Source of the DNA: Rubripirellula sp.
GTDB taxonomy: Bacteria > Planctomycetota > Planctomycetia > Pirellulales > Pirellulaceae
Assembly (NCBI GenBank): GCA_012270065.1
Contig: JAAXJB010000110.1
Location: 32,836 to 70,257 of the forward strand
DNA length: 37,422 nucleotides
Reading direction: 5' to 3'
In this document: positions 16,241 through 20,567 of the stretch, in pieces
Numbering within the stretch: the stretch's first letter is position 1
Layout: each line of letters starts with the position of its first letter
The notes under the pieces: generated by a model
Database searches by the model: none
Told to the model about the DNA's origin: nothing
Seen by the model: the letters and a program-made list of their open reading frames with translations, nothing else
Position numbers and translations under genes: made by a program

Positions 16241-18676
16241 ATGATTCAGCCAACTTTTTCCATTGAATCGAACTCATGCGGAGAAAACGTTCCGGATTTC
16301 AATGGAATGCATGGACGTTTTTCGATGCACAGGCGTGATTGCGTTTTGCAGTCCCGGGCTGTGAAGTCCACGAAAGAGCCACATCAGTCCTCTGGCGATG
16401 ATGTCATCGTACGTTTTGATTGCGGTGTTTCCGGGTTGGGAAGTATCAAGCCGCCGCAACACCTGAAGTCACATCGCCTCGGATGCGGTTCAAGCAATCG
16501 TTCCAGCAGGAATTCATTCAAACCCACCGTGCACGTTGTCGATCCAGCATCCGCTTCTACTGATACCAGCGGTGTGATCGGATTCCGGACAGGTTTGGAT
16601 TCCGTTTTGAATCATGTCGTTGAATTGAATGTCCAAGCCGATATTGTTGAGGCTCATACTGCGCTGTTGTCGACGCAACTAGATGACCATGTCGCTGAGT
16701 TTGATGGCAATTGCACGGTTGCGTCGTTTCAGATGGAAGTGGTGAGTCGGTTGGATACGATGCCTGACCCGACTTCTGGAGTTGATGACACCACAGCGAT
16801 TGTTCCCATGACTCTTGACTTGGTAACCTGGTGTCGCAGGCGGCGTAGTCTTGTCGAGAGCACGAAGGTCAGCCCATCATGGCTTGCGGGTGTTGAGGCG
16901 GGTAAAGCGATCGCAGGCACCCGAACAGATGAGTTGATCATTTCGCCAGATTGTAATGCGGCAGACTTGGCCGGCACGACAGTTGTGACTCCGATTCTGG
17001 ATCTGGTGGCATGGGCAGTGCGGCGACGACATCTTGTTGAATCAACGTCCCATCATGGGGCTGAGTGGCTGGACGAGAAGCAGGGAGGAGGGCAATCTGG
17101 CATCAGTATCGCTCCACCCGTGGCGATGTTGGACGTCAATGGAGAATTCTCTGGCAGGCTGATGTTGCCGATATGTCAACCTGATTTTACCGTTCTGGAT
17201 CGGCGGGATCTGCTTTGTTCGTCGACTGAGCATTTTGTCGATGGATTGATTTCAATCCATCAGGACTATGGCTTTGGCGTTCCAGATGCCCCACACTGCA
17301 GCAGCGAGCTGGATTTGAACCTGTCGAATCTGGAGACGAAGGTGCCACGCGTCGACGGGGATGTGCATGTCGCGACGATGTCAGAGAGTCAACGACATGA
17401 ATGTGAAACAACCTCTCATTTTCCAATGCACACCATGGCAACGCACATGGGGTCTGCGGAGCTTCATTCGGTCTGTGGTGTGTTGGATGTGATGTTGTCC
17501 AGGCCCGAACGATGTGCTGTGCAGATTGCCAGTAGTTGCTATCTGCGGGGCAGTTGCGGGTTTCCAACTGGTTGGCAGATACCAGTGATTGAAATCGCCG
17601 GATTGCTGCAGGTTTGGGATTTGCCGAATGCGGACCCGACCAGAACTTCACGACGGAGAACATGCAATCAAGGTGCTGTGCAGGACACTTCCGCGTTGCA
17701 AGGGGCACTTCAGCAGACTTGTTCTGACGATCAACTCAAGGCGGTTGGGCAGTTTTCTCGTGAGACAGGGATGCACGCACAGGCAGCATTTGGTTGGCAT
17801 GTGACGACCTTTGAGCTCGATGCCGGAAACGAAGTTCTGGGGGAAAATACATTCGACGGACGATCAGCTAGAGTTGAAGATGCTGTCAGTCATCACCTCG
17901 TTTCCGAAGATTACTTTCCACCATTGGCGACTTTCGAATTACCTCGTGTGATTTTGCATGGCCAGGATGTTGCACAGTCCGCAATCGCAGTTACAGGCCA
18001 GATGACTTCATGTGATGGCGATAAAAGTCACGAGGAAATTGAAACGAATGCTTTGGGCTATGTCTTTTCATCAGACGAATTGGGAGCCACCGATGTTTCC
18101 CCGGCTCAAGCGGATCCCCGGCCACAGTTATCTTTGGCGGACGATGGAACGCTGATGTTGCCACCAGGTTTTCAGCTGCTTGCATTTGAGGAGTTCCATT
18201 CTGACGAGTTCACGGTGGAACAAACCGCGGAAGCGGCGGAGAATCCTCCATGTTGGCAGGCAGCTTTCTGGTCATTCGAATCATGGGCATTGGGACACGG
18301 CCATCAGGCATTGGTATCCTCGTTTTGCATCGTTGTTGATCGCCAACCGTTGATGCACTTGAGGTCTTACTTCGGTGGGCAGCATGTTGTCGGGGCATGG
18401 ATCCAGGGGGCGGATGATACGATCCACGGGGGGCATGATACTGGGATGCGAGTGGCTTCCGGGGTCACAACACCTCCGAGTCACTTTGCTGATGCGGCGC
18501 CAACGGTCAGCCAATCTGATTCAGGCTCAGGTTCAGGCAGGCAGGGGAATGTCAGGTTCGGAAGTAGACCACATAGGGCAATGGTTGCCATCGAATTCGC
18601 ACAGCAGAGTATTCAGGCAATTGAGTTCAGCAAAGTGCCCACGTGGACGGTAGGGGTAGAACACTGGGCTGCGTGA
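16241..18676 (+). CDS. Orphan 811-residue protein with a duplicated motif
   Basis: A single uninterrupted frame of 811 codons from an ATG; a frame this long is very unlikely by chance at this base composition, and the opposite strand has only short frames. I recognise no family. There is no signal peptide or membrane segment, so it is probably cytoplasmic. A motif is duplicated in tandem: about residues 184-216 and 246-277 share the pattern T-[AV]-V-x-P-x-x-D-L-V-x-W-x-x-R-R-R-x-L-V-E-S-T followed by a WL pair (copies contain LVTWCRRRRSLVEST and LVAWAVRRRHLVEST). Cys and His are scattered and frequent; the last 100 residues are Gly/Ser/His-rich. No Shine-Dalgarno is evident. It converges with the Pup-ligase-family gene 85 bp away. 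It could be a lineage-specific regulatory or structural protein; function unknown. Confidence 0.6.
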   Translation: MIQPTFSIESNSCGENVPDFNGMHGRFSMHRRDCVLQSRAVKSTKEPHQSSGDDVIVRFDCGVSGLGSIKPPQHLKSHRLGCGSSNRSSRNSFKPTVHVVDPASASTDTSGVIGFRTGLDSVLNHVVELNVQADIVEAHTALLSTQLDDHVAEFDGNCTVASFQMEVVSRLDTMPDPTSGVDDTTAIVPMTLDLVTWCRRRRSLVESTKVSPSWLAGVEAGKAIAGTRTDELIISPDCNAADLAGTTVVTPILDLVAWAVRRRHLVESTSHHGAEWLDEKQGGGQSGISIAPPVAMLDVNGEFSGRLMLPICQPDFTVLDRRDLLCSSTEHFVDGLISIHQDYGFGVPDAPHCSSELDLNLSNLETKVPRVDGDVHVATMSESQRHECETTSHFPMHTMATHMGSAELHSVCGVLDVMLSRPERCAVQIASSCYLRGSCGFPTGWQIPVIEIAGLLQVWDLPNADPTRTSRRRTCNQGAVQDTSALQGALQQTCSDDQLKAVGQFSRETGMHAQAAFGWHVTTFELDAGNEVLGENTFDGRSARVEDAVSHHLVSEDYFPPLATFELPRVILHGQDVAQSAIAVTGQMTSCDGDKSHEEIETNALGYVFSSDELGATDVSPAQADPRPQLSLADDGTLMLPPGFQLLAFEEFHSDEFTVEQTAEAAENPPCWQAAFWSFESWALGHGHQALVSSFCIVVDRQPLMHLRSYFGGQHVVGAWIQGADDTIHGGHDTGMRVASGVTTPPSHFADAAPTVSQSDSGSGSGRQGNVRFGSRPHRAMVAIEFAQQSIQAIEFSKVPTWTVGVEHWAA

Positions 18677-18761: not shown

Positions 18762-20567
18762 TCACACGTATTGATGGCTTGAAAAATTGATTCTTCTTTG
18801 GTTTCTTCCTTCTCCAACAAGTGCAAAATTCCAGTCGCAAAGCATTCTTTCTTCGGATTCGGCGAACTCTCGGATTAGCCATCCACGTCGTGCCGCCGGC
18901 GAATCAGAAGGAGGCGAGCGTCGTCGCCTTTCGATGATTGATGTTTCAACGAGTCTCACGTCTGGCATGGTCGTTGCGAGTTTCCAGAAATAACCCTCTG
19001 TAGACAATTCATGGTAGCGGAGATCAATCTTTTTTCTTGCCAGCCATTCGGAATCGCTCCCGAGTTCATCGAGCATGATCCGTTTTGTCAGCCAGTCGAT
19101 CTTTCCCAAAGCATCTTCGAAGTCATTCGCATCTTTGCGAAATGCCAACGCTGCATCCAGCAATTCACGCCAACGCGTTAGCACAACGGGCGCTTCACCT
19201 CGTTCACCTGCTGGCACGCTATCGACGTACGACTCCGCCGCGGCCAGGTATTTTTTTTGAATTTCGAGCGCAGACATTTCTCCATGGCTGGTTGCAACAC
19301 GGGAAACCAGGTGCCAGTCACCAGCAATTCGACCCAGAGCATGTAGTGGCGACTTGAGTTTTGGAAGCTTCTGGTGACTTCCTGATTCGATCATGTCGAG
19401 CAGCAGTGACACGCTTCCAACTTTTACATACTCGGCCAAATCGGACAGGTTTGAATCAGAAAGGCCAATTTGTAGACGTTGTGTTCTGCCGAACATCTGC
19501 TTTGTTGAAGCAAGAGAGTAAAAAGATTTTGCACAGAATTGACCCAGCCAGTGGCCAAAAACAAAAATCGGCTTTTCGCCATTGAACCCACCCATGTCTG
19601 CGAGCGAATCAATTGCCATCGCTTTTGCGCTGACATGATACGTGCCGTCGGTGTTGAGAGTCCCGGTTCCGCACAGTACGACACGGGAGATCAGAAAAGC
19701 CGTCAAATGTCTGCGTTGTCGTCTGAACGCAATGTGACGCACAACGAAGCGCAATACAATGACGGTTGGCAGGTGAACGCATCGAAGCATGAATAGTGGT
19801 GGACTCGACAGCCACCGAGGCAGACTATCAAATAGGTCTCCGGGGCCATCGATGGCGACTTTCTGTCCCTTGATCATCTTGTTGCAAAGGACCATTGCCA
19901 GAATCATTGCCATGATCGGCAGCGAGATCACCAGGCTCAAGACCTGCATGCCCCAGAGCAACAGCACCATGCAGCGATAAACCCCCAGACACAGACCAGT
20001 TGCTACCTCTGCTTCGTAGTTCTCGTGACAGCCATACACGTGTCCAAACGCGTCGCGGTTGTTTTTGAGCAGTCGAATCTCACCATCAACCTTGGACCTG
20101 CTGGCAGCCTCAGTCGCCAGATGATCGACGGCTCGTTGGCAAGCAAGTAATTCTTCCGGGGCATGAACCTCGGGTGTGGCGATCTCGAGAAAACCGCCCG
20201 GTTTCTGTTGCATCGTGGGATGAGATTCAAAGCTGACGGCTGCTCCATTGGCGAGAAAAAGCTGTTCCGGGTCAAAGACACCCGGAACGGTTGGTTGGTC
20301 TTGCGTGATCGCGTCGCACAAGGATGCATAGACTATCTCTCCTGATGGGGGCTCGATTGAATCAGAACCTTCAGAGGGAAGAATAAGAGTTGCATATTCA
20401 GTCTCCATCCCGATGAGCCGTGATACCAGACCTCGTCGCGATTGATGACTTCTGGTGGCGGCTTCATTTAACCGCCTTGTTTTCGGACCAGTTTGCCGTC
20501 GCGGCAGTTTACCTGACTGCCCCATGGGGGATTCATCAGTGTTTGATCGACTTTCTTTGCGCGTCAA
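18762..20567 (-). CDS. Pup-ligase/deamidase (PafA/Dop) family protein with hydrophobic insertion
   Basis: Members of this carboxylate-amine ligase-like family attach Pup to lysines (PafA) or deamidate/remove it (Dop). Family blocks seen here: GMETEY (53-58), NGA (107-109) with a following EIATPEV, NNRDAFG (169-175), GCHENY (179-184), FLISR plus CGTG (291-302), DSNLSDLAEYVKVG (371-384), DMIESG (391-396), and KIDW plus RYHEL near the C-terminus. Between GCHENY and FLISR, where PafA/Dop have about 20 residues, there are about 100 (encoded at 19704-20015). They include hydrophobic stretches at about 197-228 and 253-277 that could span or dip into a membrane. About 50 basic residues precede GMETEY. 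The catalytic Asp of the family's LYLDVGSHPEY block is not clearly kept (the local sequence is VSFESHP plus extra residues), and PafA's RDEPHAD is absent. TTG at 20567 has AGGGG at about 6 nt; ATG at 20525 is the alternative. Ligase, deamidase or other amide chemistry cannot be decided. Confidence 0.8.
   Translation of the reverse strand: MTRKESRSNTDESPMGQSGKLPRRQTGPKTRRLNEAATRSHQSRRGLVSRLIGMETEYATLILPSEGSDSIEPPSGEIVYASLCDAITQDQPTVPGVFDPEQLFLANGAAVSFESHPTMQQKPGGFLEIATPEVHAPEELLACQRAVDHLATEAASRSKVDGEIRLLKNNRDAFGHVYGCHENYEAEVATGLCLGVYRCMVLLLWGMQVLSLVISLPIMAMILAMVLCNKMIKGQKVAIDGPGDLFDSLPRWLSSPPLFMLRCVHLPTVIVLRFVVRHIAFRRQRRHLTAFLISRVVLCGTGTLNTDGTYHVSAKAMAIDSLADMGGFNGEKPIFVFGHWLGQFCAKSFYSLASTKQMFGRTQRLQIGLSDSNLSDLAEYVKVGSVSLLLDMIESGSHQKLPKLKSPLHALGRIAGDWHLVSRVATSHGEMSALEIQKKYLAAAESYVDSVPAGERGEAPVVLTRWRELLDAALAFRKDANDFEDALGKIDWLTKRIMLDELGSDSEWLARKKIDLRYHELSTEGYFWKLATTMPDVRLVETSIIERRRRSPPSDSPAARRGWLIREFAESEERMLCDWNFALVGEGRNQRRINFSSHQYV

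Follow-up and report, generated by a model that had tools for sequence, protein, structure and literature searches.

Background

What is known of ubiquitin-like tagging of bacterial proteins derives, to our knowledge, almost entirely from the actinobacterial Pup-proteasome system. Pup ligases in which an insertion of four transmembrane segments follows core strand 4 were described in Rhodopirellula and Plesiocystis by Iyer, Burroughs and Aravind in 2008 (PMC2588565). In the text of that study available to us, these ligases have a neighbouring Pup gene, often unannotated, and Pup is stated to neighbour PafA always; no linkage to proteasome genes is reported, and anchoring to the cytoplasmic face together with membrane substrates was proposed. 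Relatives in the wider superfamily are said there to make small peptides, and in the accessible portion of a later study single-copy planctomycete homologues served as outgroup (PMC7947786).

A preliminary description of the locus analysed here had proposed a new amide-bond-forming or -cleaving system. Because its core has been known since 2008, with both the transmembrane insertion and the adjacent Pup gene in the portions of PMC2588565 at hand, the system is not categorically new. What goes beyond that account is a broken linkage between ligase and tag genes, the replacement of an Asp by a Glu, and relatives with a damaged ligase that lack the tag. Nothing on an unlinked tag, on ligase-tag co-occurrence or on linkage history was found in searches of the open-access literature.

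Results and Discussion

The window, a stretch of 37,422 nucleotides from an assembly of Rubripirellula sp. (GCA_012270065.1, contig JAAXJB010000110.1), contains an ORF for which the frame and coordinates were confirmed (Table 1), with an AAAGGGG sequence upstream of its start codon. The translated product matches PF03136 over residues 50-580 and profile positions 1-438 of 441 (Bitscore: 244.6; cut-off: 25; e-value: 2.6e-72), and represents the single PF03136 match in the whole 7.0 Mb assembly, which is 99.5% complete. Its scores against the PafA (TIGR03686; Bitscore: 142.7; cut-off: 551.3) and Dop (TIGR03688; Bitscore: 124.5; cut-off: 492.3) models lie under the equivalog thresholds. A sequence search of the PDB returned Dop and PafA, and when the AlphaFold model of the protein (14 sequences; pLDDT: 84.5; pTM: 0.88) was compared by Foldseek, matches 1-11 were all Dop or PafA chains, with Dop first (e-values: 7e-23 to 4e-16; TM-score by target: 0.79-0.80 for Dop and 0.73 for PafA). 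The ORF is a genuine PafA/Dop homologue, and the PafA/Dop signature motifs were found where the preliminary description had placed them, while the PF03136 search and structural modelling that it had suggested bear out its family assignment. The basic N-terminus of about 50 residues that it had also remarked upon belongs to the protein if the TTG at 20567 is the start, but in the wider alignment this tail is mostly gap. The possibility that the tag is fused into this tail was set aside, as the tail is variable and lacks a GE terminus. An 811 amino acid ORF without a family match is located at 16241-18676 on the forward strand, convergent with the ligase gene; similar ORFs occur in three loci only, the window included.

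Table 1. Features of the predicted membrane-inserted ligase gene, in window coordinates
Feature	Position	Strand	Details
Putative membrane-inserted Pup-type ligase	18762..20567	-	601 aa; TTG start; stop codon 18762-18764
Basic N-terminal tail, residues 1-52	20412..20567	-	common to nearest relatives, variable beyond
GMETEY of the first core strand, with E55 and E57 as metal/ATP glutamates	20394..20411	-	E in 70/70 and 69/70 homologues
Glu114, column of the PafA/Dop catalytic Asp	20226..20228	-	Glu 69/70, Asp 1/70
Lengthened loop, residues 115-127, Glu114 to Glu128	20187..20225	-	13 residues vs 5 in PafA references
EIATPE: E128 and E133	20169..20186	-	E in 69/70 and 70/70
YGCHENY, core strand 4 motif directly ahead of the insertion	20016..20036	-	alignment
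Insertion, residues 185-290	19698..20015	-	not in PafA and Dop references
Predicted long hydrophobic helix 1, residues 191-233	19869..19997	-	AlphaFold, hydropathy
Predicted long hydrophobic helix 2, residues 251-279	19731..19817	-	AlphaFold, hydropathy
FGHW, in the stretch of PafA/Dop RDEPHAD	19548..19559	-	alignment
RLQIGLSDSN, core strand 6 motif	19449..19478	-	R364 70/70, D371 69/70
RYHEL, C-terminal domain motif	19005..19019	-	alignment

About 100 residues with two hydrophobic stretches had been noted between GCHENY and FLISR; HENY and FLISR prove to be 106 residues apart, and two helices are predicted between them. The insertion is present in all members of the homologue set (70 different sequences, each of at least 500 amino acids), with a length of 101-179 residues (median: 122; counted in alignment columns), compared to 17 residues in the PafA/Dop references (n = 3). 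The latter comprise one Nonomuraea and two L160 sequences, for which the PafA and Dop labels were assigned here from motifs and gene order. As the insertion is common to 70 homologues, a purely local artefact is ruled out. The L160 record (MT835496.1, 40733-47842), filed as UNVERIFIED Bacteriophage sp., harbors ORFs for an AAA-Dop and a PafA-like protein, an arrangement known from actinobacterial pupylation operons, and is probably a mislabelled bacterial scaffold.

The Kyte-Doolittle hydropathy of the ligase peaks at 2.69 (residues 209-227), compared to 2.36 for the UbiA-like membrane protein of the window, 1.14-1.54 for the three PafA/Dop references, and 0.66-1.68 for eight window neighbours presumed to be soluble, several of which were named from sequence reading, without a family search. 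Three 19-residue stretches above 1.2 are found in the insertion of 43 homologues, two in 23, four in three and one in a single homologue, and in every homologue (70/70) at least one such 19-residue stretch of the insertion reaches 1.72 or more. A second AlphaFold model, that of the R. europaea homologue (pLDDT: 76.3), again has two long helices. The prediction of long hydrophobic helices, rather than a soluble domain, suggests that the insertion may be read as a membrane hairpin, and supports the earlier proposal of a membrane-attached member of the Pup ligase family. In a quick IQ-TREE phylogeny of 78 rows, which drew a long-branch warning from the program, the membrane class separates from the PafA/Dop-type sequences with a support of 99. 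It forms a separate membrane-inserted clade with retained ATP/metal glutamates, of the kind that the preliminary description had named as support for its proposal. In other planctomycete families, the membrane-class ligases of loci L166, L168 and L169, among the best 10 loci of a phylum survey, have a second insertion between DW..K and KIDLKYH-like motifs, and GGE tags upstream.

The ATP-binding glutamates are retained in this class, with E55, E57, E128, E133, R295, R364, D371 and K495 each conserved in 69 or 70 of the 70 homologues. An Asp has been proposed as the catalytic base of PafA and Dop (PMC3511204, text available in part), namely D94 in the case of Dop (PMC8599861, likewise). The column of this presumed catalytic Asp, which lies on the loop following core strand 2 and had been called unclear, holds Glu114 in the window ligase; the single Asp among the homologues is that of L038, and all three references have Asp. 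In five additional homologues, which belong to other planctomycete families and are among the best 10 loci of the phylum survey, Glu was likewise seen by eye in this column. RDEPHAD is lacking, as had been described. The Asp to Glu change and the loss of RDEPHAD count against the explanation that we favor below, and render its chemistry uncertain.

A same-strand ORF with a GE end, which stops no more than approximately 210 bases ahead of the GxETEY codons, is found at 48 of the 71 ligase loci, while such ORFs were met at random positions of the same loci in 1.8% of tries (64/3,550; somewhat narrower search window). The tails of these tags align over 34 columns, in which G and E are invariant and D and Y near-invariant. 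When three representative linked tags were compared against Pfam and NCBIfam, Pup (PF05639) and UBact included, no family was matched at an e-value of 10 or below, and since the tag is absent from current family models it is easily missed in annotation. Because the tags found already end in Glu, no deamidase is needed. The 23 loci without an adjacent tag comprise 18 from the clade of the window and five others. Among these five, the ligase is broken in L056 and damaged in L055, L030 lies at a contig edge, a long frame hid the tag start in L024, where a profile search places the tag adjacent, and the upstream ORF of the distant locus L015 ends in GGAE. An adjacent tag with a weak score (e-value: 0.022) is located beside the ligase of genome G008. 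In three genomes of one genus two ligase-tag pairs each can be observed (G072: L062/L102; G006: L101/L104; G103: L103/L081), with the tails RANTQQQGE and VVVPDGGE, and these perhaps constitute two separate tagging systems in one cell.

No Pup, ARC-type ATPase or proteasome gene is seen in the window, in agreement with the preliminary description, and no tag-like ORF was found in three frames of the 0.4 kb upstream of the ligase. The notion of a system without Pup must nevertheless be revised, as the same genome carries a Pup-like tag gene on another contig. Tag model A1, built from linked tags only and not containing the tag of this genome, has its best match in the genome at C73:4832-4912 on the reverse strand (e-value: 0.011), reaching the C-terminal GE; the strength of this match, obtained without the sequence itself in the model, is modest. 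The ORF is 96 codons long (72 when read from the second ATG), and its product terminates in DYLVKSNTGYDGE, with the C-terminus SNTGYDGE. The ligase is located on contig C29 and the tag on C73, approximately 20 kb apart even if the two contigs abutted. On its downstream side the relocated tag gene is immediately followed by short repeats with a masked stretch (L114:4400-4800; G000:C73).

Model A2, which includes the sequence of the window genome (19 of its 20 rows derive from linked tags), identified unlinked tags in eleven more genomes of the clade among 119 genomes of the family (e-values: 9e-10 to 0.0018). None of these contributed to the model and all of the tags end in DGE, bringing the family genomes of this clade with an unlinked tag to twelve. 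In G055, 1.83 Mb separates ligase and tag. Within the genus the tag is apart from the ligase in 15/15 genomes showing both, as determined by upstream ORF search for three genomes, by distance or large separate contigs for G409, G410 and G412, by inspection of the upstream sequence of the ligase for eight, and of the downstream sequence of the tag for G424. The tag tail is strongly conserved in the genus (YVLRSNTGHDGE-like), and two pairs of unlinked tags compared over 33 codons are under purifying selection (dN 0.079/dS 0.433 and dN 0.143/dS 2.62, the latter saturated). Neighbours of the relocated tag are shared by at most six of twelve loci. The 18 rows without an adjacent tag form one clade in the same phylogeny (support 95), and one change from linked to unlinked suffices to account for them.

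Both ligase and tag (e-value at most 0.002) are present in 57 of the 119 family genomes, PF03136 without a tag in four, a tag alone in none and neither in 58. The tag thus occurs in 57/61 genomes with PF03136 and in 0/58 genomes without it (Fisher p = 1.4e-29, a test which ignores kinship and in which linked tags built the model); as 19/20 tag-model rows came from linked tags, the co-occurrence is partly circular in the linked genomes. The four PF03136-only genomes are G008, the adjacent tag of which misses the threshold, G089 (a fragment), G092 (damaged ligase) and G108, which has only a different PF03136 class. A different, very divergent PF03136 class (L047-L052), often in tandem pairs, was observed in six genomes of the family, and five of these carry a membrane ligase as well. 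In 22 genomes of the same genus, largely held out from the model, both genes are found in 15, two of these with the ligase only in pieces, and neither gene in two, while three have a damaged ligase and no tag. There are two exceptions: in G421 (91% complete) a ligase was found without a tag, and in G423 (86% complete) the reverse, a tag without a ligase. The three damaged ligases carry E57W and E128K in open frames of 560-605 residues, one of their genomes being just 66% complete. These full-length relatives, located at L055:2477-4291, L191:216-1955 and L192:1045-2799, are putative membrane pseudo-ligases. Across 60 pairs, ligase distances correlate with tag distances (r = 0.65; p = 0.0001), as they do across the 48 linked pairs (r = 0.73), but the 12 unlinked pairs show no correlation (r = 0.065; p = 0.38).

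The genome of the window has no match to PF00227, a family which also covers HslV, and its best score against the Pup-proteasome ATPase model (TIGR03689; Bitscore: 149.8; cut-off: 504.75) is at the level of general AAA proteins; a whole-genome search for 20S subunits and ARC had been suggested in the preliminary description. PF00227 is matched in 87 of the 119 family genomes. Because 86 of these 87 have a single match each, the genes are not an alpha/beta pair, and are presumably HslV or Anbu-like. No conserved third neighbour gene could be identified, as flanking-ORF clusters, the ligase itself and overlapping ORFs aside, recur in at most 10/71 loci, and rho/ribH linkage is limited to the nearest relatives. 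Viral contigs yielded two stretches and no relative, and no match was obtained in PADLOC or PHROGs.

From sequence comparison and modelling, the locus probably encodes a membrane Pup-type ligase that works with an unlinked tag. A two-helix hairpin would anchor this ligase to the cytoplasmic face of a membrane, and its partner would be the small Pup-like tag encoded by the ORF of 72-96 residues on the other contig. Judging by the homology and the conserved residues, the likeliest chemistry is that the terminal Glu of the tag is activated with ATP and passed on to a lysine near the membrane. If the reaction resembles that of PafA, the C-terminal Glu would be phosphorylated by ATP on its side-chain carboxylate, which may then be attacked by a lysine from a target protein located at or within the membrane to yield an isopeptide bond, with Glu114 acting as the putative catalytic base in place of the PafA/Dop Asp. 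With a tag that already ends in Glu a deamidase step would be unnecessary, and without a proteasome the tagged protein may be regulated, or removed by another protease. In the clade of the window the tag gene would have moved away from the ligase.

The slightly better Foldseek scores for Dop, and a segment from the first glutamates to Glu114 that is longer than in PafA at the site of the Dop loop, could point to the Dop direction, in which the membrane enzyme removes or processes the tag and another enzyme is the ligase. We consider this unlikely, as the only PF03136 gene in the genome would then leave no ligase of the family, the tags found end in Glu and make deamidation unnecessary, and the PafA model outscores the Dop model, albeit with both scores far under their cut-offs. 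It is quite improbable that the ligase of the window's clade has been freed from the tag and now modifies a membrane target with another small carboxylate (glutamate, a peptide or a metabolite), while the distant tag serves something else. A gene pair that was broken once and stayed broken, the missing distance correlation among unlinked pairs and the peptide-making relatives described in the available text of PMC2588565 would fit such a change, but the tag is retained in 15/16 genomes of the genus with a normal or merely fragmented ligase and in 0/3 with a damaged active site, its tail is strongly conserved there, and selection acts on the unlinked tags.

It seems very improbable that the insertion is no membrane anchor but a helical hairpin, either soluble or lying on the surface, that serves in dimerisation or in binding the substrate. 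The topology is predicted, the HisS-like soluble neighbour accounts for the hydropathy peak of 1.68, and helix 1, modelled at 43 residues, is long for one span; against these points stand a peak exceeding that of a real membrane protein of the same window, the hydrophobic stretch in the insertion of all 70 homologues, and the independent 2008 prediction of transmembrane segments at this position (PMC2588565, in its accessible text). Returning to the membrane ligase with an unlinked tag, a more far-reaching version can be offered tentatively, although we regard it as doubtful in its entirety: a proteasome-free, single-enzyme membrane tagging system across a large part of the Pirellulaceae. In it, a Glu-for-Asp ligase would both attach a Glu-ended tag to membrane proteins and, by transfer or reversal, remove it, the tag serving as a regulatory mark and not for degradation, with tag and ligase genes separately regulated in one clade, and a sub-lineage in which the system is dead and a membrane pseudo-ligase is left.

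Conclusions

A predicted membrane Pup-type ligase in genomes in which no proteasome gene was found suggests that tagging may not feed the usual shredder. The remnant predicted to remain on substrates after trypsin cleavage makes tagging outside the Actinobacteria testable in proteomics data of cultured planctomycetes, for which the relatives with a damaged active site and no tag provide natural controls. For the genome of the window this predicted remnant is SNTGYDGE, with a calculated mass addition of about 823.30 Da, and for Rhodopirellula europaea it is ANTHHDGE, with about 861.34 Da.

With actinobacterial PafA the window ligase shares the predicted fold, the glutamates of core strands 1 and 3, a HEN-type motif, the R of FLISR, the D of strand 6 and the C-terminal domain. 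The two differ in that PafA has 17 residues where the hydrophobic insertion of 101-179 residues is found here, Asp in place of Glu and the RDEPH motif that is missing here, and in that no proteasome was found here. Actinobacterial Dop, a deamidase/depupylase, is the best structural match and differs in the same ways as PafA, while the window ligase is the sole family member in its genome. The tandem PafA/Dop pairs of other Planctomycetota belong to the same superfamily and phylum and likewise have a small tag beside the enzymes, but consist of two soluble paralogues with a GGQ tag and branch with PafA/Dop in the tree; we take these pairs to be UBact-like.

The closest described systems are the Rhodopirellula and Plesiocystis ligases (PMC2588565, available to us in part). 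Four transmembrane segments were given for them, whereas two or three are indicated here by hydropathy in 66/70 homologues and two long helices in two AlphaFold models. Their Pup gene is adjacent, whereas the tag gene of the window's genome is unlinked; the linked membrane-protein gene reported there does not recur as a neighbour in the loci analysed here, and the Asp to Glu change is not discussed in the accessible text. Shared with these ligases are a PafA family enzyme whose hydrophobic insertion immediately follows core strand 4, the proposed anchoring to the cytoplasmic face with membrane substrates, the lack of proteasome genes in the vicinity and a small Pup gene in the system.
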